The notes beneath the pieces were generated by a model. The model saw nothing but the letters and a program-made list of their open reading frames with translations, was not told the DNA's origin and did no database searches. From Lytechinus variegatus (taxonomy: Eukaryota; Echinodermata; Echinoidea; Temnopleuroida; Toxopneustidae), in contig NC_054741.1 in the NCBI RefSeq assembly GCF_018143015.1, positions 66,657,754 through 66,721,753 on the forward strand: a stretch of DNA of 64,000 nt, in the 5' to 3' direction. This document shows positions 5,133 through 52,551 of the stretch, piece after piece (the stretch's first letter is position 1; the number at the start of each line of letters is the position of its first letter). The position numbers and the translations under genes were made by a program.

Positions 5133-5181
5133 ATGTTTGAGATAGTTCTCTTGTTGTCCGTGGTTCTTCTTCAAGAAACAG
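5133..5181 (+). CDS. Exon 1: signal peptide
   Basis: The start ATG is followed by a hydrophobic run (MFEIVLLLSVVLL). The exon ends in phase 1 at a gtaaat donor. Joining to exon 2 creates the residues TALA-AGQ, a typical signal peptidase site around residues 19-20, which supports both the start and the junction. Confidence 0.8.
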
Positions 5182-8100: not shown

Positions 8101-11100
8101 GCACGTGGCGCCCGATATAGGGCTTCATCTTTGAGTGAAGAATAATCTCGGGGATAGACATTATCATTCGCATCGTTGACACTTTCTCTCGCGATCTGTT
8201 ACTTACAATTTACATGTATTTGCCATAAAGACGGACAAATGCATGTTACAAAAAACACAAAATTTCGGGAAAAAAATATATCCAATCCAACACTTCACAC
8301 TGGTCACTGCACTGCAACTCTGGATTACAAGTGGTGCAACTTTCCAACCAATCGACTTGCGCGCCCTGGAATTCCGGAATTTACATATTGCAATACAGTA
8401 TGACAGAGGTGCATCTGTGCGAACACAAAGGCCATGAGCGTAAGTTATAGTTTTGACTAGATCTAGCCCTTGAAATTGACTACATTGTACCATCCAGTAA
8501 ATATAACCATCAAAAAAAAAAAATCCGGCGAAATAGGGGGGGGGGGCGCGCCCGGGGCGCGCCCGGGGCGCCCCTTCTGGATCCGCCACTGTTCGTGAGT
8601 TCTGATGGGTTCCTCCTGTGAACCCCACCTTTATCTACCAATTCCTATAAACGTTGTCAATACGCCATTATACGGTAGCTGTTAGTTATAAACACGTTCA
8701 GTAAATTTTGTAGAGCACGTCTTCATACGCCTTCATACGCCTTCATACGTCAATATACGTTGGAGTTAAGTTACACATACGTTCAAAGCACGTTACTCAT
8801 AGGTTAGAAGTAAGTTTTAGGGTACGCTGGACATTATCTCGACGTACATCGACTTATGAGTAACTTACGAGTAACGTGTGTCAACGTGTATCAACGATCG
8901 CGTAACTTGCCTACAACTTATGGCCCGCGTATGCGGGACGTATGAGCCATACGCTGGCATACGTCGAAATTTTTTGTGCTTGCACAAAAATTTTCGACGA
9001 CCTCGCCGTATGACGACGTATACCAGCGTGTTTTAGCGTACTCTTAACGTATGCAAAACTTACCCGTAACGTATTCGACGTACGCCAGCGTATTCGCCAA
9101 ATTCCTCATACGTCGGGCATACGCTGTCTAAAACGCCAAGGTGTGACAGCGCCATAACTTGGAAATCAAGTTTGTATAATCTTCCAAAACGAGTTCTAAG
9201 TTTTGTTATTAATGCGTATATTGACTCTTTGCCCTCTTATACAAACTTACATACCTGGGCTAAAGGCCTATATTATAAGTGCTTATTCTGCGCTGGTACA
9301 ACCTCCCAACATTCTCACTCACATCTATGCTCCAAGATTTAGTAATTTTACGGAAAAAAACAGAAAGAGACAATTATGACCTAATGAACAATCGCATTTT
9401 AAACCAACCTTCATAGTGCACACCAAAGGAAAGTATGACTCGATCGTTAGGGACATCAAGGAAAAGTGTCATTCTATGCGATAGAAGCCGGGAAAGGGGC
9501 CTGGTAGACTGGAATGACAAACACCGCCTTAAAGAACACTCCTGAGAATAACAAGCTCAAAAATCCGACCAACGAATACTTCCATACCCTTTCTAAACGC
9601 ACCATACTTTTTCAATATTTTACGCAAGAAAAAACGAACCTTTAATGGGGAGATATGACACTTGGACCCGTAACCATCCCCAACATTATTCACTTAGTCA
9701 GGCTTTTTAGTGTAAACCAAATACACTTTATTATCATTACTTTTCTAACTTTGTAATATCAGAAACTAATTAATTTGATCTGAATACACATTAACATATA
9801 TTGGTCGCGTCCATTTATTCAGCGTCCCATTGTTATACTTCCATATTCGCCCTACATTTTCAATTTATGCAGTAACAAATTAATTTGATTTATTTAGATC
9901 CGATTCTAGTTTAGAAATTTGATTAAGTGTTCTTTTTTCAATATGATATCAATGAGAGCTTTAACTTATTATTCTCCTTCATTTGATGTTACTCTGAATA
10001 ATTTTCTGTTTTGGTATGTGTCACTTTTATTATGTGCCCCATGTATTGACCTGCCATTCGTTTGGAATGAAAAGGTGGACCAAGGCAAGGGCCCGTAACA
10101 CAAAGCTTAACAATGATCGTAGAACATTTTTCTACGATTGATTACATTAACTGCAATGTACAATCAATCGTAAAAAATCAAGCGTACCATTAATCGCTAA
10201 CCTTTGTGCCTTTTTTATGTAAATTTTATACCATTGTCTTTCGGACTTGAATAAAGTCATGATGAAACAACAAAATAATATAGCCTAATCAGGCGCGGAT
10301 CCAGGGGGGGGGCGTGCCGAGGCGGCCCCGCCCTATCTATTATTCCATGAAGGATGTTCCTTTTCCTAGATATTATGCTGATAGTCTTTTTTCATAAACC
10401 ACTATAAACCCCACAGCTCTTGCTGCTGGTCAAATTTGCCCAGAGATCGTTAAGTGTCCACCAAAGATGTTGGCAAGTGGAGACATTGTACAATTAGAAT
10501 TAATGGAAGTTAAAACTTCGGCCATACCAAGTGGGTTCAATTTTCCTCCTGTTCAATCAAAAGGATTCTACTGTGCAGGTAAGAACATGATAACTGACAA
10601 CTTATTATACCCTTGATAAGTAATGTGGGAAAAAATATCAATTTTGAGGTGATCTTGAGAATGTCCAAGTACTCTGTAAATGCAAAGGAACTAATCTGGT
10701 CCCTAATCACGCTCCTCTCAGAGTGAATGAGGGATTAGTCGTAATAAAGTGAGATTTCCGTCTTTCAAGAGTGAACTTTCACCTCTTTCGGAGTGAAATT
10801 ATGAAAAATTGCACACTTTCACTCCAAAAAAAAAGGTGAAAACCTACTCTTGAGCGACCAAAATCTCACTCCATCAGGACTGGTCCGTCAGATTATATCT
10901 ACTTTGCATTGAGAGTGTATATTCATGTGTACTGCATATTGTCAATGTACTTATTAGGACTCCCGTGGATGGACCTCCCAACTCCCTGACTCCCTCGTAT
11001 GTCATATTCCTCGGAGGAAGCGTCCCCCTCCAGAGGACGAGTTTCCTGGAGGATATAGCTCTCCTGATCATATCCCCAAGATGACAACTTACACCCAAGA

Positions 11101-14100: not shown

Positions 14101-17100
14101 AAAAATGGGAGATTTTAATCATTTTTCTTTTGTTATTATGTACAGGATACATATCTCAATAAATTATTAATGCGAGCGCGAAGCATGAGATGTTTCCCTT
14201 TCCTTTTTTCCTTTTCTTTCTCCCTCTTCCCTCTTCCTTTTTTTTCCTTCTCTCTTTCTTCCCCATTTGTTTCTCTTTCTCTTCTTCTTTCCCTCTTTTT
14301 TTCTCTCCCTTTTCTTTTCCTCTCTTTCCTTCCCCTTTTTGGCGCCCCCTTTCCCCCTTTCGCCATCGCCAGTATACCATTCCGTTTTTCCTCGCCCGTA
14401 TCGTGTATGTATAACCTCGATAAGACACACATTGCTTCCCCCTTTGGGTGGAAAACACTTCCATAATGCAAAGTAATCAATGACGAACAACACTAGTCAA
14501 CAGTGATAAAATAAATCAAGAAGTTGAAGAGAATTGGTAATTAATTAGGCCCACAATCGCGAATAGAGTCGACTCGGGTCGTAGAGGGCGATAGTGCAGC
14601 ATAGTAGACCAGTATGCGTATTAGACGAAATGAATATTAGACGAAATGGTGATTAGCCAAAATGGCAATTGGACATATTGGCTATTAGACCAAATGGCAA
14701 TTAGACCAAATGATTGTTAGCCGAAATGAGTTTAGACCAAGTGATAGTAGACCAAATGCAGTTAGACCAAATGGAACATGGACGAAATGAAAGTAGACCA
14801 AGTGGTTATTAGACCATTTGCCTTTAGACCATTTGGCTATTAGACCAAATGGGAATAGACGTAATGATAGTGGACAAAGTGGCTATTGGACCAATTGGCA
14901 AAAAAATACCATTAGACCAAATGGCTATTAGACCAAATGATAATAGACGAAATGGCTATTAGACGAAATGGCTATTAGACGAAATGGTGATTGGACGAAA
15001 TGGTAATTGGACCGTGTGGATAGTGGACCAACTGATGGTAGACGAAATGATATTAGACCATGTGGGTAGTGGACAAAATGGCAGTGGACGAAATGGCAAT
15101 AAACCGTAAAAAATGATGTGCTAATTTAGCACTAACAGTGCTTGTATAGGGACTGCACTACTAGTGCTGATTTTCTAGTTCAAATTTAAACTAGAAAATT
15201 AACACTCGTAGTGCAGTCACTATACAAGCACTGTAAGTGCTAAATTAGCACTTCACTTTTTGCAGTGCTGTTGGTCCTACAAATGATAAGTCAACCATAT
15301 GTGTTCATTCGTGCAAAGTCCCGATTCTTTTTTTACTAAACAACTTGGGGTCTTACGTGCTTCATCAAAAATATTTGTAAGCACTGTTGGTCCTACAAAT
15401 GATAAGTCAACCATATGTTTTCATTCGTGCAAAGTCCCGATTTTTTTTTACTAAACAACTTGGGATCAGAGGTAGAACTCCCTTAATATGTTTCCATTCC
15501 CTTACAAAAGAGCCATTCTTACGGTCTTTAAGACTTGTCGGTGGTAATGAAACTGAAGGAAGATTAGTTGTCACATCTCAAGCTGACCCAACAACCGATA
15601 TGCTCGTTCATCAGGGAGATTGGCCAAAGAATGCATCGCAGTTCGTCTGCAAGTATCTAGGATATGAAGGTAAATGATTACTAGAGTTAACTCCTGAAGG
15701 TCGGTGGATATATACTACTTTTGGGAGAGGGTGGCAAGTACAAACCCCAAACTTTCTAGAAAGATTTTTTCAGCAAATTATGAAGTTTGTTGTTTAACTC
15801 AGGTGATTTCATCGTTGAAATTCTTTAAAATGCCAATGCTGAATTGATCAATTTCGTAATAAAAAGTCGCAAATTCTGCATGTCGCTCAGCTCTCTCGCT
15901 TAAACTTCTCTGAATGATTTTAACGTATTTTGCCCTTGACAAAAATCTCACACATGGCCTCATTACAGTGTATCCACTGCATTACAAGACTTAGAGTAGA
16001 CCCAATTAGTCATTTATGAATTGGATAATGACTATTAAGTATAGAGAGTTGCAAACATATACACAAAATACTTTGTAATTACTCTCCATTTGGCACTTGG
16101 AGACAAAGTACCACGATGATGGGGATCTTGAATTTGTGGGGGGGGGGGATGGGCTGGGTCTTCCCTCTTTGACATCTTTGTTCATTCAGTACATAAAAAC
16201 ATGATTTATTTTCCAATAACGACAGATGGCTTCATGGTACACTTCTACCCCCCTCACATTCAAAACATTTTGCAAAATCCAACTGAAAGGAAGGAATTTT
16301 ATCTGTACGATAGTCCATACCAAATGTTAAAATACATGTAAGGGTAATGGCAGAAGTAACAATAGAGAAGGTTTGAGCGTTATTGAACATTTTACGAGAG
16401 TTGAAGGGTTTATTGACAAAAATGGAAACTTTTTGGACATCGCGATTCGTGAATACACTTCTTCTGATTAACTGGCTGACAAATTCCAGCTACGTATATC
16501 GTACTTAACAATCCCTTGGCTCCTTCCCCATCATCCAAACCCTTTCACTCTTTGCTGTTCTGTGCAACATTTGTAGTGGATGCAGACATCCGCAATCTGG
16601 ATCTATTTGAAGAAGATATTGAAACAATCTAACGCATACCTTGCATTCGTTTAACCACTTGCTTGGGTGATTCTGAAGAGGATTAAAAATACCGCTTAAA
16701 CAAAGAAAAAAAATCAATAAATTGGTGCTTAGTTCCGCATATTAACGCGGAAGTCTTACCACCTATTGGATAGAGTTGGCAGATACAATTTGTTTAAAAG
16801 TTACGAGTAGCTATTAAATAATAATTTTACGTCAAATATCTTATGAAAAGAAACATACTATAATCATGATAATCTAAGGTGAATTACATATAATTCAACC
16901 AAAGGCTTTAACATCACTGGATAAAGTCACTCATGAATATCCATTGCAAATGATGAATGGATCTAAAGTCCATTTCATATTACTTCGTTAAGCAACATAA
17001 GTCACCATTCATCTTGTATTTTCTATTTGTCTCTTAACAGGTGCATATGCTACAGTAGGAGGAGATCTCTTTGAGATACCATCCTCACCAAATAATTCTT

Positions 17101-20100
17101 ATGATGCTGTGTCTCTACGATGTCCAGCTAATATGGATAACGTTACTCGCTGCTGGTATAAACGTATGGATTGGAAGATCCGTTTGGACAAGAGTATTGC
17201 TATTGTTTGTTGTACATGTGAGTATTCAGAATGATGCGATTTTCTTTGAAACACAAATAAATTTCCACAATATGAGTTTAATATAATATCAGACTAAACC
17301 GATTAAGTCAAATAAAACAATTTGCAAAAGATAAAGTACTCTGATAAAGTACTCAAAAAGTTACATAAATCATGACACGGAAGTTCAACAAATTTTAACC
17401 AAATTAAATGTAACGTCATACCTGGCAGGCAAAAGACAACTGGTACATGTAGTTAGCAACGAACGTAGTCTAATAACCTATTCTTCTAGTCAGCTTTTCT
17501 TGTCTTCACCCTAATGAATTTAGACGTTTCAAGATGCACTGATTTTGACTATTCTCTACAGGTCTGTCTTGAAAAATATGAGAGCTTGGAAACAAACTTT
17601 TCCCCCAGGAAGGATGATTTGGATCCTTTCTATTCAGCTTATTTAAAAAGCTAATTTGGTTTTAAAGCATTCAATTTATAGATTCGTACCTTCAGGTCGT
17701 CTTACTAACATAAATGTGTTGGAGTAGATCTCTGCCCAATCTTGTTTGAATTGATCTCAACCACATCTTGAAATGGCTTGATGCCGATAACATGAAGCTC
17801 CGTGCTACCTGTCGCATGCAGGCTGAGGATTAACGATCCAATCTGCTACAAGCCAAAGACAAGAATGAAATCACAACAATACAGCACCAGGGTTCAAGAC
17901 CCTGCCTCGATCTAATCCAAATCCTGATTTGCCCATGCATGTCGGAACACTACAGCATGATGTTGACCCTAAAGCATCCTTGACGGATCAACCTTGATTA
18001 TAGTGACTAAGTCAAGGTGGATCCTTTTCTGAAAGAAAAATTTTTGAGAGTATTTCAAATACCTTAACTTTAAGATCGAGTGGCAAGAGTGTAACGTTGA
18101 ACTAGCCCACGAAGCTCAATATTTGGGCATTGATGTTATTTGTCTCCAAAGCATCGGACAGATCATTCTGTACTAATTGTACAACATAGATTTTGCGAAT
18201 GGTTATATTTGAATTCTTGTTCTGCTTGGAAGAACTCCATATTAGTGCATCTTATGGTGATGTTGATTTTCTAGTCTCACCATGCGCTCTGAAAACATGT
18301 CTTGAAATTCGAAAGCTTGATAATCGTATAATTAAAATCACTTTCAAATCCAGCAACCACTATAGATTACTGTTACAGCCCAGCGAGCCCATATAACATG
18401 CATTATGAGTATTCTGAAGAGGACGTTGCTCAGTTCTTTGATGAACTTTCTTCCGCTATAAAATCTTTGCCTGGACATAATTTGGTGATGAAAGGCGGGG
18501 ATATTAAAGCACAACTTGGGCCCGAAGATGCTGACTGTACTATTTCATAAAAAACCAGTAGGAATGACATGCTTAATTCTCAGTTCTCAAAGATGTATGG
18601 AGCAACAAAATTGCATTAAATGCTACTAGATTCCAACACCGGAATGATAGGCCATGAACTCACAAGTGGCCTAATGGTCAGCTTGCTCAAATTGATTCTA
18701 TCCATGTCAGACGGAAGTAGATCAGGTTAAGAATAGTATAGTATATCGGTCTTTTGAAGGGATTGGGTCTGATCATCATGATCATCATATTGTCTCATGT
18801 AAATGCCATGTATTTACAGGCATTCCATGCAAGAGCTTTCCTCGATAGAAAGTCTTGAGTCGCATATGTATGAACTTAAATACTTAAATAAGCATGGCCC
18901 TTTGCCTTGTCAGTATTGATGCATGTTCATGAGCTTAATGTCATGAATTCTGTCTTTTTCCCGGGGGGGGGGGCACTCGACCAAAAAAGTGGTAGGGGTG
19001 TGCCGCGGGCGAGACAAAAAACGGGAGCCTTGGAGCGGTCTTATTGTAAAAAGGAGGGTCCTCGGAACGGGCTTCGGAACTACAATTTTGTGAAAAACGG
19101 GGGTCCTTGGAACGGATCGCCATTGTGTGAGTACGTGCGTTGCACCCCTATGGAACGGGTATACGTGCATGATGCAGCTAGCGGGGCCTCCGCCGGTTGC
19201 GCTCGCCCAGAGACGATGGTCGGACAGCGCTCGGCGGCCGCTTTTCACCAAAATTGCAGCAGATCAATGCGACCAGAACGGCGTAACGAAAAATATGCGA
19301 AGCTTTGGAGCGGATTTCTTTCTTCTCTTTTCTCGATAAGAACAAAATGCTATGTCTTGGAGCGGCTTTCTTTTTTTTTTTTCAATAAGACAAAAATGCT
19401 ATGCCTTGGAACGGAAAGTTGGGTGTAAAAATGGGGGTCCCCTCCGCGCGCGGCCGCACATACCCACTATGCATTATATACTGAGTGCCCCCCCCCCCCT
19501 TCCGGGGTCTTTTTCGATATTCAAATAGAGGTCAAACTTTGTAGATACATTCTCTCCTGTGAGAAGCAATTCTTGTGCATCCTTCAAAAGAGTAGTTGTC
19601 AATGCCGGGAGTCAATGCTTTATTATCAGCATAATCCAAATGAGTTGAATTTTGTGTTGGTCCCTACTTGTAGACATAGGTTTGATGTTCATTCATTTTA
19701 TTCGTACATGATCTAGTGAATATCTTAGAATGTAATCTAGTACAATTAAAAATAGATTTGGTGCCAAAGTGTAACCCTGAAGAATTCCAGAAGTTGTCAT
19801 AAAACTGTTCAGCAGGTCCATATACACTTTGAATAAAGGAGAGTGGATTTGTATAAATTAGGTCGATTGCTTCTATTACTTTATTTGGGATACCATAATT
19901 TGAAAGAATCTCAATCATATTACAGCGGTTAACGCTATCAAATGCCTTTGAGAAATCAAGGAAATGATAGTACATTGCTCTCTAGAATTCTTAGTTCTTC
20001 AATGATTCGCCTTTTTGAGAGAATATGGGAGGGAGTAGATCTTCCTTTCCTGAAACCATTTTTATTGTTCCTTAATATATATCAACATATGGAATCAAAC

Positions 20101-23100: not shown

Positions 23101-26100
23101 TTCAATACTCACTATTTCTTTTGTTTTTATTGTTTGAATTATACAATATTTCAATTTTTACGAATTTGACAATTAGGACCTCCTTGCCTGAAGCACAAAA
23201 TGTTAAAATAATGGAATTCCACGTGTTTAGGGAGGAATGAAACTTCATTTTACATGACAATGACGAGAAAATCAAAATATTTCATATTTCATATAATAAA
23301 ATACAAAATAAATAGTGAGTGAGTGATGTCATCAACTCTCTCATTTGAATGTAACTGGCTCGTACATATAACTATTTTGTTTAAAATAAGCGAAACTTAA
23401 AATGTCATAACTTTCTTATTTTACATCCGATTTTGATGAAATTTTCAGTGTTGTGCTTGTTGAATTTTCCTCTTTTTATTCAAATCAAGTTTTTGTTGGG
23501 GTGGACTTGTCCTTTAAGTAATTATGGTTATCAGGACCACTTACAATTCTGTTTTCTATACAACAGCGTACATGTGCAATACACCCCGTGGTAGTCCTCT
23601 GGGTCTAGAAAGCGGTAAAATCCATGATGATGCTATTACAGTTTCGAGTGAGTGGGGCGAGACCATTGTGGGCAAAACTAGAGCTCGTCTTAACGGTAAC
23701 TCTGCGTGGCGCCCTAACATCCCCGACGACGCTGACCCCTGGCTGCAGGTTGCCTTCGATTCCGCTTTTATCATCACAACTATTATAACACAAGGCAGAC
23801 CAGTAGCTGGGACACAGTGGACGACCGCATACAAAGTGTCCTACAGTATGGACGGAACGTCATGGACCTTCTACCAAGACACTTCTGCTAATACTGACAA
23901 GGTAAACATCTATATCGCATCTTGTCCTCTTTATCCTATACAAAACAAAGCCTGAAACAACTTGGAACCAAATCTGAGAACAGAGAGGGGGAGATAGCGA
24001 CTAGCGAGCGTAATTAAATGCTGTTTCAATCCCAATAATTGCATTATTATCGGAGAGGTTTAAATGAATACACCCATGGACAAACGCCTGTGTGAACAAA
24101 ACCTCACGATTGTGTCCAAACAAATTTTGGGAATATTTAAATGATATTTACTGGCCTTGAGGGGAACTTCAAATATATGTCGCCAGCAACAGAATCATAT
24201 TGCCCCGAGTCTTTAAACGAAGGCAATGTGGATCTTTTAAGGACGTCCCACAGTTAAAGTGAAATCCATGTCATTTTCACCAAACTGTGCTCGTAGAATA
24301 CTTCTAGCAGCACCCGAATATTCCAAATATGCAAAAATTAACTTGGGTCTATGTGCTTGATTTTGTGCTATAGAACTTCAAAGTTCGCCCAAATTGACGT
24401 TCTTAAGAATTACGCATTCAAAGGAATTTGACATTTTTAGACCTTACGAGATTACTACAATGAGTTTAAACCTCTATTACTCAGTCAAAATCCATGAATA
24501 TTAGATTTCGCAACAAAGTTTCGAAACATAGTTAATAATTGTATTCTTCAAGATGGAAAATCTAGCATTGCTATTTGTATGTTACGTTTACGATCGCCGT
24601 TTTAAACGACGTTTGAAAGCGCTGATTCTGTCCTCGCAATGGAAGCATAAACACAACCTCAGTCTACAGCAGTAAGTCTTAAAGATGACAACAAAAGCCC
24701 AATTTCAAAAATGTGTAATTTCAATACAAATTTGTGAAGTGCAATAAATGCAGCTGCACTAAACTCAAAACCAATGTCATTTAAGTTCACCAAATGTTGC
24801 ATACGTGGAGAAGAAGGTATATATAAAAGGTGTAAACATTGAAAAAAAATAGGGGTTCATGTTTTGTTATGTTTTTAAATTATCAGCACTTTTGTTAGAG
24901 CAAATGTGCTTTTGAAAACTGCATTCTCTGATTACTATTATCATGATGAGTAGGCCTAACCCCCGAAGGGCACTTCCATTGACTAGTGGATACCATGCGC
25001 GACCCCGGGGTCTTGGAAAGCACCCTTAACACGTATTTTCCATATTCTCAAAATGCAGCCCTTAATAAGTATTGGCGTGTGAGACCCTACCCTCAACAAG
25101 TATTGGAAACAAATACTATTGGCAAGTATTCCCAGAACTGAGCCCCTAAACTAGTAGAGTGATGCATTTTCCATGTTCTGAAAATGCACGCCAAACAAAA
25201 CGATACTCTTAGCAAGTATTTCCTGAAATGAACCCATAAACAAGTACGGAGATATTTTATTGTTATGTCACGCGTCCGTCGGTTTTACCATGAGACACCA
25301 TTATTTTTGTTTAGTACGGCCCCACCTTCCACATCTCGCGCAAATCGGACTCTAAACACGTAGTGTTGGGGCAAAAAGGACATCCTTTATAAAAACTTTT
25401 GGATTTTGTTTTATCATCCCCGCATATTTGACCATAAACACGTATATTTTTCCGAGCGAAATAAATACCCTTTTTTCAATATTTTTGTGTTTTTTACACC
25501 CTTATCACGTTACGTACGTAACGTGCCCTATCGTGAAAAGGACATTCTTTTTACGTGTTTTTTGGTCGCGCATGGTATCCACTCGTCAATGTAAGTGCCC
25601 CTCCCCCGGGGGGGGGCCTAACCTTAAAGGGGAATGAAACTTTTGGAATGAGTAGGCTTGTGTCGAAACAGAAAAATCAAAGAAAACAGATCAACGAAAA
25701 TTTGAGAAAAATCTGACAAACTATGAGAAAGTTATGTGCATTTCAATAATGCAAGCACTTATTCTGGAGATCCTCCCATTGGCAATGCGACAAGGATGTG
25801 TGATGTCACATGTGAACAACTTTCCCTTTGATGGACTATAAAATACCCCCAAACTGTCTTGATTCTTATTGGGATACATATTCTTTATCCATGATGTATT
25901 CTTTAAAAATCAGACATGCCCTCCTATAGAAAGAATACATGATCTACTGATAGATGTGATAAAAGAGACAATTTAAGTGAAATATATACTAAAGTAATGG
26001 GGAGAGTTGTTCACCAGCATGACAAGTGACATCGCACATCTTTGTCGCATTGACAATGTGAGGATCTCCATAGCATTAGTGATCGTAATATTCAAATGCT

Positions 26101-29100
26101 CATAACCTCCTCATTATTTATCTGATTTTTTGTCTCACCTGCGAAGCAGAGTGAGACTATAGGCGCCGCTTTTCCGACGGCGGCGGCGACGGCGGCGGCG
26201 GCGGCGGCGTCAACATCAAATCTTAACCTGAGGTTAAGTTTTTGAAATGACATCATAACTTAGAAAGTATATGGACCTAGTTCATGAAACTTGGCCATAA
26301 GGTTAATCAAGTATTACTAAACATCCTATTAAAGTTTCATGTCACATGACCAAGGTCAAAGGTCATTTAGGGTCAATGAACTTAGACCATGTTGGAGGAA
26401 TCAACATTAAAATCTTAACCTGAGGTTAAGTTTTTGAAATGTCATCATAACTTAGAAAATATATGGACCTAGTTCATGAAACTTGGACATAAGGTTAATC
26501 AAGTATCACTGAACATCCTGCATGAGTTTCACGTCACATGACCAAGGTCAAAGGTCATTTAGGGTCAATGAACTTTGGCCGAATTGGGGATATCTGTTGA
26601 ATTCCCATCATAACTTTGAAAGTTTATGGATCTGATTCATGAAACTTGAACATAATAGTAATCAAGCATCACTGAATATTTTGTGCAAGTTTCAGGTCTC
26701 ATGATTAAGGTCAAAGGTCATTTAGGGTCAATGAACTTTGGCCAAATCGGGGGTATCTGTTGAATTACCATCATAACTTTGAAAGTTTATTAGTCTAGTT
26801 CATTAAACTTGGACATATGAGTAATCAAATATCACTGAACATCCTGTGCGCGTTTCAGGTCACATGACCAAGGTCAAAGGTCAATGAACTTTGGCCGAAG
26901 TGGGTGTATCAGTTGAATTACCATCAAAACTTTGAAAGTTTATGGATCTGATTCATGAAACTTGTACATAAGAGTAATCAAGTATCACTGAACATCCTGT
27001 GCGAGTTTCAGGTCACATGATCAAGGTCAAAGGTCATGTAAGGTCAATGAACTTTGGCCATGTTGGGGTTTTTTGTTGAATAACCATCATATCTCTGTAA
27101 GTTTATTGGTCTAGTTCATAAAAAGTGGACATAAGAGTAACCATGTATCACTGAACATCTTGTGCGAGTTAGAGTAGTATTCAAAGTCAGCACTGCTGCT
27201 ATATTGAACCGCGTGATGCAGGTGAGACGGCCAGAGGCATTCCACTTGTCTTAAACTTTCATCGATCTGTTTCTTTGATTTTTCTGTTTTAACACAAGCT
27301 ATCTTGTTCTAAACGGTTTCATTCTCCTTTAATATTTATGGCCTCCTTTAAACAGTAACCGGCATTATGAAAATCGAATCTTCTCATACAGCCATGTTCT
27401 TGCGTTTTCTTCAGGTTTTCTCAGGAAATTACGACGGTTATAGTCAAGTAGAACACAACTTCCTCACACCCATCGTATGTAGATACTTTCGTATCCATCT
27501 GCTAAAGAGCTGGGGTTATATGAGCCTCAGGTTAGAACTCACTGGGTACGGTCCCATCAATGAATTATTAGGTGAGCACAATATCAGTGATCATGATCAG
27601 GCGCGTACGCAAGGGGGGGGGGGTTTCGGGGGTTCAACCCCCCCCCCTTTCGTTTCCTTTTTTTTTTTTTTTTTTTTTTTTTTGCTTGTCTCCCCAGAGG
27701 TCGGTCTGGTCAAGGAGTTATCGGGCAAGAGCCTGATAACTCCTTGGTCTGGTTACGGACAGTTCCCCTACCCAATAATGTATATGACAGCAATAATGAA
27801 CAGAATCTCATGTTTCCGACGAAAAACACAGAAAAAATTTCCACTCGCTTCGCTCGCTCCATTTTATTATATCTTTTATTTCCGCATGTCGCCGACATGA
27901 TCACGGTATCGCCATTAACAAGGCCATACATGATTATCATGATGTATACTTATGAATACAAGTGAACCAAGACAAAGACATACGTTTTCTTACAAAATAT
28001 GTTTTACCAATATGAAAACAAAAATGACGGAAAACGCTAAAATGTCGGTTAGCTCGCTCCGCTCGCTCGTAATAGTTTATGAAATTCCATAAGTATCTAG
28101 TCTCCTGTTCAAGGCCGTATTATGAGTGTTATGAATAGAAGGACATGTAGCATCGACTAATACTTGATTTACTAACAAACTATTGACAAGAAATGTATGT
28201 TTTGACGGGAAAACGCGAAAATTTCGGCTCGCTCACTCCGCTCGCTCGTAATCATTTATGAAATTTCTTAAGTTTCTAGTCTCTTGATCAAGGCCATATC
28301 ATGAGACTTACGAGCAGAAGGACATGTATCATCAACTAATATGTAATCATTACCAACAAGCTATTGAGAAGAATTGTATGTTTTGACGGAAAAACGCAAA
28401 CATTTCGGCTCGCTTGCTCCGCTCGCTCGTAATTATTCATGACATTTCTCAAGTTTCTAGTGTTCTGATCAAGGCCATATCCAGGCGCGTAGCCAGGGGG
28501 GCTGTCGCCCCCCCCCCAAAAAAAAAAAAACGTCCCAAAAAAGAAAAAAAAAGAAGGGAAAAAAGGAGAGGAGAAAAGGAAAAGGGAAGGAAGGAAAGGG
28601 AAGAAAGGTAGCTTTGTGTTTTTTCTATTTATTCTTTATTTTTTTCTCAAAAGAGAAACTCCTTCACTCTTCTTGCTTTAAATTCATATATGAATTTTGC
28701 TTCCGCGCTGCGCGCGGTTAAATGACAATATTGAAGTCCTCCATTGTTCCCCCACCTTTTCTCTAACCCTGTTTTTCCACCTCAGCTATGTGCTTCTTGC
28801 CAGTTACAGTTAAAATTGTATACATTAGGGCATGAATTGGAGTAAGGTTAGGCCGAAGTAAATGTATGAAGTTATCTTTTTTTTCAATTGATCGCGCAAC
28901 TTCTGGTCTGGTCGGCTCCGAGCGGGTAAAATCTTTATATTTTAGTTTCTGCCGTCACCTCCATAAAGTCAGCTTCTCCCGCTTTTCAGCTCATTACTAT
29001 AAACAACCATAATTTGGGGGCAAACAGGTTCCTAATTTAAAAAGTGGAAGGTATGGAATTCGTGTCGTATTAAATAAAAAAGTACAATATTTTTTTTATC

Positions 29101-32100
29101 AAATTGTATTAAACTTCATGTCATTTCCCTGTATACATTCATCTCCTGTCCTGTTTTGCGCCCTCAGTTTGAAATTTTGAATGACACTTAAGTTTCTTTA
29201 TTTTCAAAATGAAGCGCTTCAGGATAAGTCAAAAAAAATAATCATCCTTTATTATATAGATAGATAATTTCAATAAATCACAGAAGTTTCAACTTTATGC
29301 GCACTATTTTCCTTGTAATAAAGTTCAATAATCTTAGAAAATCAATTGAATTAGAGACGATTGGGTATTAGAGATATCTACATTTGATGAAACGTCCGCC
29401 CTTTGAAATTTCAGAGTTTCATTGCTCATCGCGGGGAGGAATATCTTCCTCTACCAATCTTCTCCTCTGTTTTGCGAGTTAAAAATATGCACTGATGCTA
29501 AATTGTTTGTAATCAAATCTGATCTTTCCAAAGAAAGTTTCAATATATCTTTGAGAATACCCTTTTCTCGGGACCCTTTTTATGGCAAGAAAAATTGATG
29601 AATCACTTTAGCTTCCGCGCTTCGCGCGGAGTTATTATCATTTTAATTTCCTCCGTTGTATACCTCTTTTGTGCGTTTACAATCACTTTTGAAAACAAGG
29701 TTCAAAATCGCAATATAGTCAACCGAATTGGAGGTACTAGAGACAAGAGAAACGGCTCCTTTTCATTTTAATTTATGAAACACTAAAAGCTTCGCGCTTC
29801 GCGCGGGAGGGGGAAACTCCCCCTCCCTGCACCCACCCCCTAGGGAGCGCGCTTCGCGCGCTCTGTAAGTGTTGGCACGCTTCGCGTGCATTTACCGCCC
29901 CCTCCAAAATGAAATCCTGGCTACGCGGTTGGCCATACCATGAGTGCTACGATCCGAAGGACATGTAGCATCGACTATGATACCAACAAACTATTGACAA
30001 AAAGGTTATGTTTTCAACGAAAAAAAAAGAAAAAAAAATCATCACCTCCCCCCCCCCCGCTCATCACTTTTTAGAGACTGGGCGGGAGATTTAAAAAAAA
30101 AAAATCAGCTCGAAACCCCCCCCCCCTTTCAAAAATCCTGCGTACGCGCCTGATCATGATGTCAGTGTTTCCGACCGAATTTGGAACTAAGCTAATACGA
30201 AGTTTCGGTATTCAATTAGAACAATTATCGGAAACTATAATTTAAAATAAAATTTAGCTTTATTCACACCAAATATAGAAATTAGATTATTCGATTTCTG
30301 ATAAATGTGTTTAATTCTATTTGTGCGTGAATCGTAATGAAGATCTAATACATTATAACGATTTGACTTATAAGCGGATTTCGAACCAGCCACAAAGTCA
30401 TTTTACAGAAGCAGATGTGGTGAAGCTTGAACACAATCAGAAAAAAAAAATATTATTTAACAAGTAAGGAATTTTTACAAGTTGCAAAAAAAACATTTGT
30501 TCACAATATCCACATGATCAATGGCTAAAATCACGAGGCACTGCCACTTAATTTCTGGACTGATACCCGTGACACCAATTCAGCTGACTTCACAGGTATG
30601 TCTCTGGACAATGCGTAGAAATCCACTGGAAATAATGTAGAGTGCAATGATATCCAAAATTAGATTGAACACCTAAAACTAACAGATTTTCTCCAATCTC
30701 ATTTCATATTCTAATCTTACACTGTCTTAGGAATATCTCGACTGGGGAAGTTCAAGAAGTACAATCTGTTTCTCCTCTTGCTCGGACAGAAGCTGACAGC
30801 CTATAGTTTCATGTCAGCACTCTTGTTGACGCCAACTTCAGAATATTAAAACCTTTTTTTTTTTTTTGGTGGGGGGGTATCTTGATCTATAATCTCTAGG
30901 GATGATTGGTATCAAGTACGGAAAGACTAACGGAAGAAGTAGCCTTAGATAGGCCTGTGGGGCATAAACTTGCCTTGCTATCGATCTCTCAAAGATATTT
31001 CATTTAAATCGTTGTTTCTTCTTAATCATTTTAAATTTAGCTGCTATGAACCAAGAGGAATCTGGATGTTCACATCCCCTGAGAGGAAGTAAAATGGGAG
31101 TGGAAGATGGACGAATCCCAAATTCTAGTCTTACTTCTTCATCGTATCGAATTATCGACGGATTTCCCCTTTCAGCACAAAATGGAAGATTGAACGGCGG
31201 AATAGATTCTAATAGGAACGCTGGCTGGCTAGCCGTTGATGACGGCAAAGACATATGGGTGATGGTGGGTCCGTTATATTTGTATTCGTCTGCACACAGA
31301 AAAGTCTGTGCTTCATAAAAAACATGTCTAAGCCTTATCTATCTACGCATTTGACCGCTAATTTGGAATCGGTTGATGTGTGTTTTAGATTTGAAATTAC
31401 TTATGAGGGATTTTCTCTTTTTTCGTCTTGAAAAAATGTTAAGAGACTGGCAATTGTGCACAGCAAAACAAAAATGAACAAAATATGTAACCTTTTACGA
31501 TTTGGTTTATTATGTGAACTTTGATTTGTTCTTTGTGATTTAAAACGGAGTTTAAACTAATCACTAATCACAAAAAAATGAATGGCAGTAGTTCAAATAA
31601 AATTTTATAGAAAAATTAGTGATTCATTCGACAATTGATATTAAAGGTCTATTCAAACAAAATATAGTGAATCTTTCGGTAATTAATCTAAGAGGTCTAT
31701 TTATAAACAGAATTTAATGGTAGGATGATATTTATTGAAGGAAAATGTGTAAGGTTCCATACCCCAGATACCAATTCTCTTTATTTTAACACAGTGTACG
31801 ATTACTTGTCTAGTGTTCTCAGACACTGCTGCAAGAACTTTGGGGGTAGGGGGTGGGTACTTATTACAAAATAGCTTTTCAAGTTTACTAATATTCTTTG
31901 CGTTAGGCAAGGGATATGGATTTATTTAAGTTTTTTATCCATTTGATTTTTTTTCTGCGAATGTTTTGACTCCTCAGATAGATGTTGGTCAAACCTCTCT
32001 CATCACCGGTATCATTGTACAAGGGCGACACCTGGAACATCAATGGGTAACGTCTTTGAAAGTGTCCTATTCCCTGGATGATTTTAGATGGACATTCGCT

Positions 32101-34811
32101 TTGGAACCACAATGCGAACAAGTAAGTTTGCTTGAACGCAACAATGCAATAATTAAGCATCCAATCTTTTTCGTTTGATATTTTCCTTAACCAAATGGGA
32201 TGTTTCAAAAATATTATCTAGTAATTTTTTTTTTTTGAAATTTTTATCAGGCCTGAAAATAGGACATTTTGGGAACTCTTTTGTGGCCAACGTTACAGTA
32301 TGCGTATCTTATCCTGGAAAATAACGAAAGTTCAACAGCCGACCAGAAATATTTATTTATACATTGGGATAATTTCAATTAACCCTATTGAACAGGCGCG
32401 AGAGATAAAACTATTTTGTGTAAAGTAACATAGGTCCCCGTGCACAAAAAATTTGCAATTTGCGAACTTGCGGTGTATAAAATTGTTATTGTTATTATTA
32501 TTATTAAACGTCAACGAACGTAGAGAGCAGCAACACTGCAGTGTATTACTGCCCTTTACATTCGTTGGTTCCAATCGAATGCAAATTAAAAAAAATCACA
32601 AGTAACTTGATAATCAAAAGCACTCGTTTGGAAATTGCACTTAAAATTTGGGGTTAGGTAGTAAACGCAATTCTTTCGGCAATGGTCCTCTTTTTTTTAT
32701 TTTCATTTTCTTACAATACTTTTCCCCCTCTAATTTTATTCCCATATCTTCCTGCTCCACTCTTTATTCTATTTTATCCATCCATCCATTCTCCTTTTTA
32801 TTTCTTTCCCCGCTGATAGGGAAAGGTGTGTTACAACCGATAATGTCGCACCAACGCATAATGTCGTAGTTTTTCTAACGCATAATGTCGTAGCAAAGTG
32901 TCAACGCATAATGTCACATGTCGCAACGCATAATGTCGCAGTGGTAGTTTCTTCAGGACTCGAGCTACAGATAAGATATAAAATATGCTTTCACTCAGTA
33001 TTTTGAGACACGAGAAAGAGAATAAAGTGATTTGGAAATCATTGGCCCCTTGAAAAAAAAATACAACTAGACTATATGAATGATAATAAACAAAACGACT
33101 ATTAGACCAACTGGCTATAAGACGAGATGGTAATTAGACGAAATGGTTATTGGACTATGTTAATGGTTGACTCACTAATGGTAGACGAAATGATAGCAGA
33201 CCATGCGATAATGGGGAAAAGGGCATTAGACGAAATGGCAATAAACCGATAAATATCCATACAAAGAGTTATCCTGATTTCCAAATCACTTAATTCTCTT
33301 TCTCGTGTCTCAAATACTTAGTGAAAGCATATTTTATATCTTATCTGTAGCTCATGTCCTGAAGAAACTACCGCTGCGACATTATGCGTTGCGACATGTG
33401 ACATTATGCGTTGACACTTTGCTACGACATTATGCGGTGCGACATGTGACATTATGTGTTGACTGCGACATTATGGACCGAATTCACAAAGGTGGACTCT
33501 GCAAAATCCACGGATTTTAGAATCCGTGGATTTTTGAGTCCATGGATTCTGGAAAATCCACGGATATTGCAGTTTGTGATTCACCAACAGTGGACTCAAA
33601 AATACATGGATTCAACCGTGGACTCAACTAAATCCGTGGATTCATCCGTGGATTTTGCAGAATCCACCTTTGTGAATTCGGGCCTATGCGTTGCTGCGAC
33701 ATTATGCGTTGGTGCGATATAATCGGTTGTAACAGGGTGCAGTCGCTTCAGCCCCTGGATATATCTATGCATATAATCAATTTTTTTTTTTTAAAGGATG
33801 TTTTATTATATTCTCTCAAATCAACATACATACTTTGTACAAACTATTTGAAACATAATTATAAATTATACAATAAATCCATTACAATATAATTATACAA
33901 CTTATACATCAAACTTCAAAAATACTAGAAATTAATATACTAATGCGTTTCAGCAATTACAAAATGAAATATTAACAAAATATGACATGATCAGAGAGAA
34001 AAAAAGGATAAAAGAAAAAAAGGATTGATTTTTTTTTCTTTTTTTCTCAGCCCTTGTCATTCCCCCCCCCCCCCCCACCCTCCCTTGAACACCCCATCCC
34101 CTATCCAGTGGAGAACTGGCTCTGGGCTCCAGTATATGGTCTAATATAATTTAAGTTTTCCCATTTACAGAAATGGATTGTAAGAGTCCCCCTCTTTGTT
34201 GCTAATTTCTTTTCTTCTCTTTGATCCCCCCTAATACTATTTTTTATTTCAATCAATGAAGGAGGTTTTTTTAATTCTCGGTTTTTGTAAATAAGATATT
34301 TAACTAAAATCAAGACATGATTAATTAATTGATATTTACCTTTACTTTTCTCCTGCTTCCCGAAAAGAATTTCCTGCCAACTAAATTTATCTATTTCAAA
34401 ATTTAAACTTCTTGCACATAGATCCCAAAGTGATTTTGAAAATTCACATGTATAAAATAGATGTTCATATGTTTCTTCTTCCCTTTCACAAAATGAGCAT
34501 AAATTGGTCGAAATAAGACCAAAACGGAAAAGGTGGTGGTTAGTGTATAAAATATTATGCAAGAGTTTATACTGGAACTCCCTTAATCGACTATTCAGTG
34601 TGCAATATCTTAGTCTTAAAAATATACTTTCTATTGAAAATCTTAATCGATCCCTCTTCATTACCAGGTCTTTCCTGCAAACTACGATAATGACACTCCA
34701 GTGACTATTGTCTTCAACCAGCCACTCACTGCCCGCTACGTCAGAATTCACCCACTCTCATGGTCCAATGTCTGCGGCATGAGGTATGAAGTCCTTGGTA
34801 TACGAGATTAG
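5133..34811 (+). CDS. Secreted SRCR - F5/8C - F5/8C protein, nine exons
   Basis: Exons: 5133-5181, 10417-10578, 15511-15669, 17041-17217, 23567-23901, 27415-27571, 31041-31264, 31978-32121, 34668-34811. Coding length 1551 nt, 516 residues. Every junction has AG/GT borders and matching phases (1,1,1,1,0,1,0,0), and the frame stays open to a TAG at 34809. Order: signal peptide (1-20), a Cys-bearing N-terminal segment (21-71), an SRCR domain (about 77-182) and two discoidin/F5/8 type C domains (about 186-340 and 356-513). There is no transmembrane segment, so the product should be secreted. SRCR and F5/8C domains are extracellular recognition modules that bind glycans, lipids or proteins; a role in immune recognition or adhesion is an inference. 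An extra 5' non-coding exon is possible. No canonical AATAAA lies close after the stop; the first I see is at 35256, inside a repeat. Confidence 0.86.
6656..9148. mobile_element. TIR element with cgtat-rich subterminal arrays
   Basis: Ends tgtcacaccttggcgtttta and its inverse; the inverted match continues for about 40 bp (to ...cccgacgta). Both flanks within the element carry many cgtat/acgta motifs (to about 6950 and from about 8700). It interrupts the LINE. I find no clear target duplication. The centre is taken up by another element (7163-8591). Confidence 0.8.
7163..8591. mobile_element. Nested TIR element of the ggatccgcc family
   Basis: Left end caggggcggatccag, right end ctggatccgccactg (15-bp TIR with one mismatch), each followed inward by long G or GC tracts. 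No transposase frame and no convincing target duplication. Confidence 0.68.
10094..10210. mobile_element. Hairpin MITE in the LINE 3' region
   Basis: acacaaagcttaacaatgat to ttaatcgctaacctttgtgc form imperfect inverted arms, with ctacgattgatt repeated inverted near the centre. Confidence 0.55.
10290..10335 (+). mobile_element. Lone end of a ggatccgcc-family element
   Basis: caggcgcggatccagggggg matches the outer end of the elements at 7163 and 48944, but no matching right end is found before exon 2. Confidence 0.4.
10417..10578 (+). CDS. Exon 2: N-terminal extracellular segment
   Basis: Acceptor ccacag, donor gtaaga, phase 1 to phase 1, 53 full codons with no stop. It has three cysteines (QICPE, VKCPP, FYCA). 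I do not recognise a named domain; it may be a short disulfide-linked cap before the SRCR domain. Confidence 0.8.
10740..10876. mobile_element. Hairpin MITE
   Basis: aaagtgagatttccgtcttt and its imperfect inverse (gagcgaccaaaatctcactc) bracket about 130 bp in intron 2. Confidence 0.5.
12797..12980. repeat. AAT/ATT microsatellite
   Basis: Imperfect (aat)n with gat interruptions, inside the foldback element. Confidence 0.8.
13320..14180 (+). repeat. Degenerate tandem units with aatgcgagcgcg motif
   Basis: Repeating blocks share a gcgagcgcg(c)agc...gagctga core followed by an attttcagacatcaaaacgg-like stretch. Similar units occur at 56240-56480. A pyrimidine-rich tract (14190-14340) follows. 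Confidence 0.5.
15511..15669 (+). CDS. Exon 3: first half of SRCR domain
   Basis: Codes the SRCR start RLVGGNETEGRLVV and the Cys segment FVCKYLGYEG, matching the family's 'RLVGG..EGRVEV' and 'VCRQLGY.GA' blocks. The block that normally reads WGTVCDD has no cysteine. Acceptor cttacaaaag, donor gtaaat, both ends phase 1. The acceptor was chosen because it is the only nearby AG keeping phase 1. Confidence 0.82.
15670..17040. other. Intron 3 of the SRCR gene
   Basis: AT-rich; only a short G-run near 16138. Nothing else recognised. Confidence 0.4.
17041..17217 (+). CDS. Exon 4: second half of SRCR domain
   Basis: Acceptor ctcttaacag, donor gtgagt. It continues the SRCR fold (AYATVGGDLFEI, then LRCPANMDNVTRCWYK and IAIVCC). 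The ending IVCC matches the last SRCR strand. Phase 1 at both ends makes exons 3+4 a symmetric 1-1 module, typical of shuffled extracellular domains. Confidence 0.82.
17760..18905 (+). mobile_element. LINE fragment, RTE-like APE endonuclease region
   Basis: Degenerate frames read ELAHEAQYLGIDVICLQS, then EEDVAQFFDELSSAIKSLPG, GGDIKAQLGP and, in another frame, THKWPNGQLAQIDSIHVRRK followed by EGIGSDHH-like sequence: the endonuclease of RTE-type LINEs. Several stops and frame changes. The end of this copy is closely matched by an opposite-strand copy at 21030-21150. Confidence 0.68.
18953..19515. mobile_element. MITE with CCGGGG ends (element 18961-19507)
   Basis: Begins ccgggggggggg-cactc and ends gagtgccccccc-ttccgggg, flanked by a perfect 8-bp direct repeat tctttttc (18953-18960, 19508-19515). 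Inside are repeats of the form ggtccttggaacgg. Open frames inside are chance products of GC-rich repeat. Confidence 0.82.
20474..20547. repeat. Near-perfect hairpin
   Basis: Arms of about 36 nt (gtgtcacattttatcatagt and its inverse) with a 2-nt loop and two mismatches near the base; probably a small foldback MITE in the LINE copy. Confidence 0.7.
21185..21385. mobile_element. MITE with about 26-bp TIRs
   Basis: ctgggcaacacactgtccac on the left and gtggacagtatgttgcccaa on the right are inverted copies with one mismatch. Confidence 0.7.
21968..22655. mobile_element. MITE with ggtcacacc ends
   Basis: taaaggcctggtcacaccgg is answered by cgggcggtgtgacctggtct. A short internal duplication (cagcattc-t-ggagcggtg) lies near the left end. 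The ends recall those of the 6656-9148 element (tcacacc). Confidence 0.68.
22803..22888. repeat. Perfect 37-bp-arm hairpin
   Basis: taatgaccgatatggatttt... and ...aaaatccatatcggtcatta pair along the arm with a 9-nt loop (caactgtta). Confidence 0.8.
22905..23517. mobile_element. Long-TIR MITE, family 'aaaggacaagtccacc', copy 1
   Basis: tttaaaggtcaagtccacc at the left and ggtggacttgtcctttaa at the right; the inverted match runs for over 150 bp each side (aatcggatgtaaaataagaa and inverse). It ends 50 bp before exon 5. Relatives at 35570-36159 and 55190-55737. Confidence 0.8.
23567..23901 (+). CDS. Exon 5: F5/8C domain 1, N-terminal part
   Basis: Acceptor ctatacaacag, donor gtaaac, phase 1 in and 0 out. 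It carries the discoidin hallmarks PLGLESGKIHDDAITVSS, then ARLN..SAWRP, DPWLQVAFD, ITTIITQGR and KVSYSMDGTSWTFY. It lies 50 bp after the end of a MITE (22905-23517). Confidence 0.9.
23902..24952. other. Start of intron 5
   Basis: AT-rich; a block from about 24238 (aaggacgtcccacagtt) looks repetitive, but its far end is not found. Confidence 0.35.
24953..25622. mobile_element. MITE with CCCCGA/CCCCGG ends (element 24961-25614)
   Basis: TIRs contain attgacKagtggataccatg and inverse. Flanked by ggcctaac (24953-24960, 25615-25622). A second copy in opposite orientation is at 50994-51520. Internal blocks repeat acaagtattggaaa-like units. Confidence 0.8.
25622..27331. mobile_element. MITE with ttaaaggggaatgaaac ends, split by a repeat
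   Basis: ttaaaggggaatgaaac at the left and gtttcattctcctttaa at the right; the arms are partly inverted copies (gatttttctgttt and inverse). The element is interrupted at about 26130-27235 by the nuclear-receptor-motif repeat. Confidence 0.72.
26131..27235. mobile_element. Repeat element with direct-repeat (DR1/DR4) array, copy 1
   Basis: Ends gtctcacctgc and gcaggtgagac plus ggccagaggcattccacttg. The interior is about six degenerate units of 145-165 bp. Five units hold aggtcaaaggtca, a direct repeat of AGGTCA with 1-bp spacing, three of them followed by tttagggtca, which adds a 4-bp-spaced repeat. A trinucleotide tract (cgg)n lies at 26179-26209. Copy 2 is at 52552-53816, inverted. Confidence 0.78.
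27415..27571 (+). CDS. Exon 6: F5/8C domain 1, C-terminal part
   Basis: Acceptor tttcttcag, donor gtgagc, phase 0 in and 1 out. Residues VFSGNYDGYSQVEHNF, TPIVCRYFRIHLL and LRLELTGYG match the end of the discoidin fold. The usual final Cys (LEVLGC) is Tyr here. A 2.5-kb TIR element begins 26 bp after the donor. Confidence 0.88.
28040..28480 (+). repeat. About 178-bp tandem units inside the TIR element
   Basis: Units share tgttttgacgg-aaaacgc, then ctcgctcNctccgctcgctcgtaat and gatcaaggccatatcatgag. Three successive starts near 28052, 28230 and 28409. The last is cut by the nested element and resumes at 29931. Confidence 0.75.
28473..29937. mobile_element. Nested TIR element (28480-29930) with ggccata duplication
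   Basis: ccaggcgcgtagccagg and cctggctacgcgg are inverted. ggccata flanks both sides (28473-28479, 29931-29937); the intact sequence ggccatatcatgag in the preceding tandem unit (about 28292) shows the empty site. The interior has repeated cgcgcttcgcgcgg hairpins. Confidence 0.8.
30161..31040. other. Rest of intron 6
   Basis: AT-rich, with a T-run and G-run at 30858-30880; nothing recognised. Confidence 0.4.
31041..31264 (+). CDS. Exon 7: F5/8C domain 2, first part
   Basis: Acceptor ttaaatttag, donor gtgggt, phase 1 in and 0 out. It contains CSHPLRGSKMGVEDGRIPNS, LTSSSYRI, NGRLNGG and NAGWLAVDDGKDIWVM, the first half of a second discoidin domain. Domain 1 has no intron at the corresponding end point. 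Confidence 0.86.
31978..32121 (+). CDS. Exon 8: F5/8C domain 2, middle part
   Basis: Acceptor gactcctcag, donor gtaagt, phase 0 both sides. Residues IDVGQTSLITGIIVQGR and LKVSYSLDDFRWTF are the central discoidin strands. Confidence 0.88.
32122..32825. other. Part of intron 8
   Basis: AT-rich, a short (att)n at 32487-32505; no gene or element end recognised. Confidence 0.4.
32826..33736. mobile_element. Long-arm inverted element with cgcataatgtcg motifs
   Basis: gttacaaccgataatgtcgc at the left, inverse at the right. Arms of about 250 bp contain several cgcataatgtcg units and a shared tail (gatttggaaatca and inverse). The centre (33090-33243) carries units of the 11758-15105 foldback family, ending ggcaataaacc exactly like that element's terminus. 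The right arm holds a nested MITE. Confidence 0.72.
33472..33688. mobile_element. Nested MITE (33476-33684), tatg duplication
   Basis: gaccgaattcacaaaggtgg and ccacctttgtgaattcgggc are inverted. tatg lies on both sides, splitting an otherwise intact cgacattatgcgttg motif. Internal repeats of aatccacgga/atccgtgga. Confidence 0.75.
33781..34650 (-). mobile_element. 5'-truncated LINE 3' end (RT zinc-finger region)
   Basis: Read on the minus strand: LREFQYKLLHNILYTN, then LCSFCEREEETYEHLFYTC (C-x2-C-x8-H-x4-C finger), LILVKYLIYKNRELKKP and a final HFCKWENLNY, as in the C-terminus of L1/Tx1-type LINEs. A T-run at 33781-33792 is the poly-A tail. The frame is open over about 180 codons, so it is fairly young. 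The 5' break is between about 34640 and exon 9 at 34668. Confidence 0.75.
34668..34811 (+). CDS. Exon 9: F5/8C domain 2, end and stop
   Basis: Acceptor cttcattaccag, phase 0. Residues VFPANYDNDTPVTIVFNQP, ARYVRIHPLSW and MRYEVLGIRD finish the domain and reach TAG. The intron just before this exon ends in antisense LINE sequence (33781 to about 34650). Confidence 0.86.
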   Translation, partial: VFPANYDNDTPVTIVFNQPLTARYVRIHPLSWSNVCGMRYEVLGIRD

Positions 34812-34867: not shown

Positions 34868-35519
34868 CTGAAATTTTTCAACCGCGCTGCTCACCGACCT
34901 CTTACTTTCGAATCTCGCACAACTTTTGAGACCAAATTTGCGATCCCCGGGTACGCGATTACGAAGTTACGCAATATTATGTAAGTGCATGTCAGACCCA
35001 ATACTGTTCATGTACAAATCCAATGCAAAATTGTGTATTTAGCCAAAATTCATAAATGTATAATTATTTCTACTTTTGCTGATTAAATTTAAATAATTTA
35101 GTCTTGTTTATGATCGAAATTAAGAATGCAGCAATTTCCATAAAAATACAATAAAAAGCAAAAAACAAAGAAATACATAAGAAATACGTAAAACGGATTG
35201 CGATACCATTTTTTTTTGGAAGTACACTTAATCGAGATCCTTCAACGACTCTGTGAATAAAACAAATTAGCAGTTTTGAGGTAGTATAATAGTTGATCAG
35301 AGAAAATTTTTTATTTCATGAATAAATTAGCATAATTAATTTATTTAATGAAAAATCTTATTATTAAAAAAAATACATACAGCCTTGTAGATTATATCGC
35401 ACACTGCCACTGTGCAAATTTTTGCGGCTCTCGCGCGATCGAAAGGCGAGATCTCAGGGGGGGGGGGGCGGAATCCGCCCCTCCCCTGCTGTGAGATAAC
35501 CCGGCTCTTTTAGGGTTAA
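34868..35519. mobile_element. Diverged copy of the 3140-3908 TIR element
   Basis: Shares cgcacaacttttgagacca, gtaagtgcatgtcagacc and a ...gcgagatctcagggggg right end closing with agggtta. It begins 57 bp after the stop of the SRCR gene, so it may lie in its 3' UTR. Confidence 0.68.
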
Positions 35520-51844: not shown

Positions 51845-52551
51845 ATCGGATATATTGCAGTACATTTGCATTGATATTATTTTATCTTGTGAAGTTCTTC
51901 TTCGGGTCTTGTGGTTGCCTTTACGTCGTGTAAAATCTGGTTTCGTGTGAGGCAATGACCCCAATGACCGTCCATGAATATAAAGGCATTTTGCCTTTTA
52001 TTCGTTCCAAAGTTCATTACCTATTTTGCTGCATCATGTACATCGTAGGAGCACCTATTTATTCATTCCAATGAAGCAACCAGAGATGCAAATGCTTCTG
52101 CTACATTGATTGCAAAACGTATTTGATATAGTCACATGGTAATTTTTTTTAAAGGAATTGATGCCCGTTCGGTTATATTATGTAGCTTCTTGATTTTTAT
52201 CTCCAAAGTCTCTGCACAACAAATCCAATCCAAACTTTCAAAACTTGCAGGGAACTTGATTGTGATGACGTTGGACATGTTAAAAATGGTAATCGCAATC
52301 ATAGTATTTGGGAATTATAAAGTCGGTTAGTACGTTGATTAAGCAGCTGTCAAATTATGCCAAATTACATGTTTTTCTTAGTTTATAAAAAAAATTTAAT
52401 GCTTTTGAAAGTCAATGTGTCAGTAAAATACCCGATATATACGGTTCTGTTTTATGCAGAAAATTACGTTGTTATGAATTAGACTTTTGCGTTGTAAAAT
52501 GAACATGATGTGTGGAAAATTTACTACAAATCTAAAAAAAAACAAGTGGAA
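51845..52551. other. Upstream of the DsbA-like gene
   Basis: AT-rich; presumed promoter and 5' UTR, but no element can be named. Confidence 0.35.

Follow-up and report, generated by a model that had tools for sequence, protein, structure and literature searches.

A tandem-duplicated SRCR–F5/8C–F5/8C gene family in Lytechinus variegatus: a possible set of secreted bridging recognition proteins

The window, by which we mean the whole 64,000-nucleotide stretch of Lytechinus variegatus DNA that was analysed (C2:66657754-66721753 in the coordinates of the 869.6-Mb genome), contains at 5133-34811, on the + strand, a gene whose nine exons join in frame to encode 516 residues. All eight introns are bounded by GT and AG, with phases 1,1,1,1,0,1,0,0, and the nine phase-consistent exons put forward in the sequence-only reading are base-exact. 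Exon 1 (5133..5181, + as are all that follow) provides the start codon and most of a signal peptide; exon 2 (10417..10578) completes the signal peptide and continues for about 50 residues with three cysteines; exons 3 (15511..15669) and 4 (17041..17217) encode the first and second halves of an SRCR domain. The main part of a first F5/8C domain is carried by exon 5 (23567..23901) and its end, with Arg333, by exon 6 (27415..27571), and a second F5/8C domain starts in exon 7 (31041..31264), runs through exon 8 (31978..32121) and ends in exon 9 (34668..34811), which also holds Arg508 and the TAG stop codon (34809-34811). Candidate polyadenylation signals at 35082..35261 (+) are consensus matches only, in AT-rich DNA; the first three of seven hexamers are ATTAAA at 35082, AATAAA at 35150 and AATAAA at 35256. 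An Rfam scan of the window gave no match, and a tRNA search of it found none. Bindin, an echinoderm family, has matches at two loci of this genome (best E 4e-66), which supports an echinoderm origin.

Two details of this gene model were settled between competing versions. Exon 2 was located by a scan for an in-phase exon of 162 bases, which returned five candidates, two of the others overlapping exons 3 and 4; seven of the eight genome-wide matches of the chosen exon (window copy counted) fall in the gene cluster described below, all of them free of internal stops. The nine-exon model thus superseded one of eight exons and 462 residues, exon 2 being a recurrent feature of the cluster copies; the genome search and the solved-structure search were run with the 462-residue form, and exon 2 was searched separately. 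For exon 7, a donor six bases earlier, after the Trp codon, was dropped in favour of the later donor because the W-V-M-I-D-V-G that the latter yields aligns with W-L-Q-V-D-F of factor VIII C2.

The window also holds repeats and further open frames. Within introns of the nine-exon gene there are retroelement fragments, namely an RVT_1 match in intron 1 (5731-6039, +; 1.7e-10), a weak RVT_1 fragment in intron 4 (19664-19981, -; 0.011, below the cut-off) and a zf-RVT fragment in intron 8 (about 34425-34592, -; 6.3e-11). Similar-looking arrays of 192- and 163-base units, apparently in opposite orientation, occupy 26210-27170, in intron 5, and 52621-53744, and a 67-base tandem array at 58584-62432 (57.5 copies, 97% matches) shows a strong AT skew of 0.34 and 0.44 in its two 2-kb windows. 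Downstream of the gene, an open frame at 37900-38565 (-) matches Sulfotransfer_5 (34.0 bits, cut-off 23.2) and is likely to belong, as an exon, to an unrelated gene situated between copies of the cluster. Additionally, frames at 50210-50536 and 51536-51997 (-), which have no Pfam match above the cut-off, resemble on visual inspection the exons of a protein that is secreted and thioredoxin-fold-like.

The nine-exon gene has close relatives on either side. A search of the genome with the 462-residue query yielded 93 matches with E no higher than 1, and six copies, G1 to G6, were modelled from fetched DNA. Beside the window gene (G2), four more complete nine-exon copies lie on both strands within about 240 kb: G1 (C2:66633412-66647997, +), G3 (C2:66750860-66722659, -), G4 (C2:66774362-66758215, -) and G6 (C2:66819920-66871574, +). 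The remaining modelled copy, G5 (within C2:66781694-66806000, -), is partial and damaged, and exon hits and two search loci are all that represents a seventh copy, near 66.906-66.920 Mb. In each of the five complete copies (of six), window copy included, the nine exons follow the same order on one strand and encode 515-517 residues; each of the other four shares 78-89% identity with G2. Exon lengths in the five are 49, 162, 159, 177, 326-335, 157, 224, 144-147 and 144-153 bases, so exons 1, 2, 3, 4, 6 and 7 are equal in length throughout and the length differences in exons 5, 8 and 9 are all divisible by three; the in-frame joining is partly by construction, since the splice-site search was limited to the expected phase, and the equal exon lengths are independent support for it. 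Exon 1 with its donor was found in five of the six fetched copies. It is damaged in G5, where a deletion of ~257 bases has also taken most of exon 3 and its acceptor, and G5 is probably a pseudogene; its 97.6% identity to G4 over 10.9 kb marks it as either a recent duplicate or an assembly duplicate. The repetition of one exon and domain order across the copies is the best evidence that a single gene is present, and a split into an SRCR gene and an F5/8C gene was judged unlikely, given that this order recurs in five complete copies; the spacing from exon 4 to exon 5 is ~1.6-1.9 kb in G1, G4 and G6.

Is the combination confined to this cluster? SRCR and F5/8C hits lie on the same strand and less than 10 kb apart at C2:79.72, C3:71.49, C17:3.09 and C17:10.49-10.52 Mb, so the link between the two domain types extends beyond it. 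SRCR domains themselves are abundant in this genome (at least 150 profile matches over the cut-off, 150 of 1224 candidates having been scored), and at some other loci the domain occupies a single exon, with the cluster copies dividing it over two. The first description of the gene had called its domain order uncommon, a claim weakened by the several such genes in the same genome and further by the 36 F5/8 type C domains counted among the partner domains of SRCR genes in Strongylocentrotus purpuratus, according to passages of PMC10855680.

The proposed succession of signal peptide, SRCR, F5/8C and F5/8C in one gene is supported by Pfam together with the repeated order in the copies, although with unequal clarity: in the joined protein the F5/8C family matches twice and clearly (PF00754; two stretches, E 1.3e-51, 174.5 bits against a cut-off of 28.2), whereas the SRCR match is weak (PF00530; 21.9 bits against a cut-off of 26.1). 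By inspection, the signal peptide is divided between exons 1 and 2 as MFEIVLLLSVVLLQET/ALAA. The segment of ~50 residues that follows in exon 2, with its three cysteines, has no Pfam match; this segment, the loss of two SRCR cysteines and the tandem cluster all go beyond what the sequence-only reading had described.

The weak SRCR score calls for a closer look at this domain. As an isolated domain it scores 26.1 bits, equal to the cut-off, and the SRCR of copy G3 reaches 23.3 bits in its whole protein; related single-exon SRCRs score 36.3 bits (L051, on contig C3) and 29.4 bits (L052, on contig C17). Because these two score higher and have the same cysteine plan, we accept the window domain as an SRCR which, judged by its sequence, is genuine but degenerate, or reduced. 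Among solved SRCR structures CD5L matches best (whole-chain E 1.7e-5), although the independent E of its best single stretch is only 0.18. Alignment with CD5L places cysteines 117, 151 and 161 at C3, C5 and C6 of the usual SRCR cysteine numbering. By position, C8 would be one of cysteines 180/181, the other being an adjacent extra cysteine, which brings the cysteines inside the domain to five. Cysteines C2 and C7 are absent in all seven full SRCR domains that were read (those of the five complete cluster copies, L051 and L052). In SRCR domains, C2 and C7 form a disulfide pair, and the loss of both partners of one pair fits a genuine yet reduced SRCR. A first-half SRCR domain on contig C17 (L053) is likewise without C2. 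A second-half SRCR exon near 79.7 Mb of contig C2 (L024, 2730-2948, -) keeps the CC pair and has lost C7 and the C5/C6 positions, a pattern suggestive of the loss of a second disulfide pair at that locus. The window SRCR, without C2 and C7, departs from the group A pattern of six conserved cysteines and three disulfides as given in passages of PMC10855680, and its five cysteines also differ from the eight conserved ones of group B.

The F5/8C domains are far less ambiguous. Their solved-structure relatives, among the best 60 of 65-66 matches, are factor V/VIII C domains, neuropilin b domains, lactadherin and retinoschisin; exon 5 alone gave a predicted structure with a mean pLDDT of 37.3, which was set aside. 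Arg333 in domain 1 and Arg508 in domain 2 occupy the position of factor VIII R2163/R2320, which is described along with the factor VIII membrane spikes in parts of PMC9643838. Both arginines are unchanged in all five complete copies; the phosphatidylserine-contact arginine of factor VIII is thus kept in both domains, which by itself does not establish lipid binding. Nor does the fold imply a lipid ligand, since F5/8C domains bind other ligands too, collagen, glycans and growth factors among them. Of the spike tryptophans, domain 2 retains W501 (the W2313 spike), and W327 of domain 1 is W in the window copy and L, L, L and I in the others. Cysteines 186 and 356 stand near the starts of the two domains and no cysteine follows the last strand of either, so the terminal cysteine of factor VIII C domains is missing; a cysteine at both ends is common in F5/8C domains, not required.

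How have the copies diverged? Pooled over the ten pairs of complete copies, dN is 0.108 and dS 0.177, for a dN/dS of 0.61. In each of the six pairs tested (of ten) pN is below pS, at P < 0.01 in five and at P 0.19 for G4-G6; the window copy shows this against G1, G3 and G6. Exon divergence is about half of non-exon divergence in two of five comparisons, slightly lower in two, and slightly above it for G3-G4 (0.102 vs 0.092). Between regions, dS ranges from 0.08 in the SRCR to 0.27 in the first F5/8C domain, differences that gene conversion could have produced. Variable sites number 22/110 in the SRCR, the least variable part, 63/155 in the first F5/8C domain and 45/158 in the second. The window copy has six N-glycosylation sequons and 13 cysteines, each of the latter unchanged across the five complete copies. 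Cysteine totals in the five are 13, 13, 14, 15 and 15, oddness being lost in G3.

Within the F5/8C domains, variation is concentrated at the predicted spikes, above all those of the first domain. The spikes were mapped from factor VIII by phmmer alignments, with the V2223 loop added to the set. Taking windows of about three residues around the published spike residues, a width picked after the alignment was viewed (as was also true of an earlier loop set), 25/29 sites vary in domain 1 against 38/126 in the rest of that domain, and 20/30 against 25/128 in domain 2. When equal segments were placed at random, 0/20000 trials for each domain attained the observed count, and circular shifts did so in 0/154 (domain 1) and 2/157 (domain 2). 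The pattern is suggestive only, since loops are more variable than strands in most families and the trend recurs in the second F5/8C domain. Positive selection on the spikes is not shown, with a dN/dS of 0.97 in domain 1 and 0.75 in domain 2 and with dS raised in the same windows (0.555 and 0.315, vs 0.220 and 0.165 elsewhere in domains 1 and 2); the high dN/dS fits relaxed constraint equally well as diversification.

What might such a protein do? We infer a function in recognition or adhesion, and with it secretion in vivo, ligands, bridging, tissue and an immune role, the last of these resting on the SRCR family and not on the window gene itself. Tentatively, we lean towards a soluble secreted protein that bridges and recognises, at work in the coelomic fluid or at the surface of epithelia; the gene belongs to a tandem-duplicated family whose members differ mostly in the spikes. 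The F5/8C pair would dock on a phosphatidylserine- or glycan-bearing surface via the spikes around the conserved arginine, docking on membranes or glycans being suggested by the tandem pair and its conserved arginines, and the SRCR or N-terminal part would bind a second partner: a microbe, a cell or another copy. The closest functional analogue is MFG-E8, a bridging opsonin, and the window protein may act as a secreted opsonin in the same manner, with spike differences between copies that could alter what each binds. Distinctly improbable, in our judgement, is that the copies form a diversified soluble recognition family in which the SRCR core, the lipid-type arginines and most of the second F5/8C domain would stay constant as a frame and the spikes of the first F5/8C domain would be remodelled by substitution and small indels, each copy recognising a different surface in a CDR-like way.

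Three other explanations compete with the secreted bridging protein. One is a non-immune protein of the matrix or of cell adhesion, comparable to retinoschisin or Del-1, in which the F5/8C pair anchors to matrix or cell surface and the SRCR self-associates. Neuropilin, retinoschisin and lactadherin F5/8C domains among the solved relatives listed are in keeping with such a role, and the six sequons, together with a cysteine count that is odd (13), would permit covalent assembly, but the oddness is not kept in G3 and tandem copies with loop variation are less expected of a structural matrix gene; we regard this explanation as somewhat unlikely. Slightly less probable still is a soluble pattern-recognition protein that acts mainly through its SRCR and whose F5/8C pair, in a lectin-like or lipid-binding supporting role, is aimed at microbes and not at self membranes. 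The strong expansion of SRCR genes in the sea urchin (passages of PMC10855680) and in this genome speaks for it; the SRCR, however, lacks two canonical cysteines and varies least, so the copies do not diversify there. Finally, might the gene be a decaying or unexpressed copy, its frame open merely because duplication is young? The dN/dS of 0.61 overall, 0.97 in the domain-1 spikes and 0.88 over the exon 2 segment would be compatible with decay, as would the damage to neighbouring G5, but in five copies the nine exons persist with splice sites and frames intact at a whole-gene dS of 0.06 to 0.23, and pN is below pS in the window copy's three comparisons; we consider this explanation very unlikely.

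Sea urchins have very large SRCR gene sets, few members of which have known ligands. A small secreted member with an F5/8C pair of the factor-VIII/MFG-E8 type suggests ligands that can be tested for, phosphatidylserine or glycans, and the cluster provides both a natural series of closely similar copies with differences in the loops predicted to make contact and an SRCR subtype without two canonical cysteines. The general picture is unchanged, as the combination of SRCR and F5/8C has already been reported, from sea urchin and from starfish.

Comparison with known systems places the gene more precisely. In the sea-urchin SRCR superfamily, as presented in passages of PMC10855680, S. purpuratus has 359 SRCR genes, 253 of them in tandem, and the window gene resembles this set in joining SRCR to F5/8C in an echinoid gene set with tandem clusters; in Table 1 of that paper, F5/8 type C is also entered for a starfish, A. 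planci. According to its discussion, each sea-urchin SRCR domain corresponds to one exon, a result that concerns one scaffold and has one exception, whereas the window SRCR is split over two. A secreted DMBT1-like protein of the crown-of-thorns starfish, described in part of PMC10448888, likewise combines F5/8C and SRCR in a secreted echinoderm protein, but, unlike the window protein, it adds calcium-binding EGF-like domains and repeats its domains throughout. In the portions of PMC11959729 consulted, SRCR and FA58C are mentioned in separate contexts. The exact order SRCR-F5/8C-F5/8C is absent from the main-text passages of PMC10855680, and neither that order, nor the loss of C2 and C7, nor spike-centred variation was found in the literature searched, which covered few subscription papers. 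The C1-C2 domains of coagulation factor V/VIII are among the best solved matches listed for both F5/8C domains and have the R2163/R2320 arginine in common with them; the window protein differs in having neither A domains nor the terminal cysteines, and spike 1 of factor VIII C2 is four residues longer than that of window domain 1. MFG-E8/lactadherin and Del-1 (EDIL3) are small secreted proteins that end in a tandem F5/8C pair preceded by EGF repeats, one with RGD. Where these have EGF repeats, the window protein has an SRCR and a cysteine segment in its N-terminal part; because it has no EGF-family match at E up to 1 (Pfam) and RGD is found in none of the five complete copies, it falls outside the MFG-E8 family. 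It shares with MFG-E8/lactadherin and Del-1 the F5/8C pair at its end, and lactadherin chains are among the solved matches listed.
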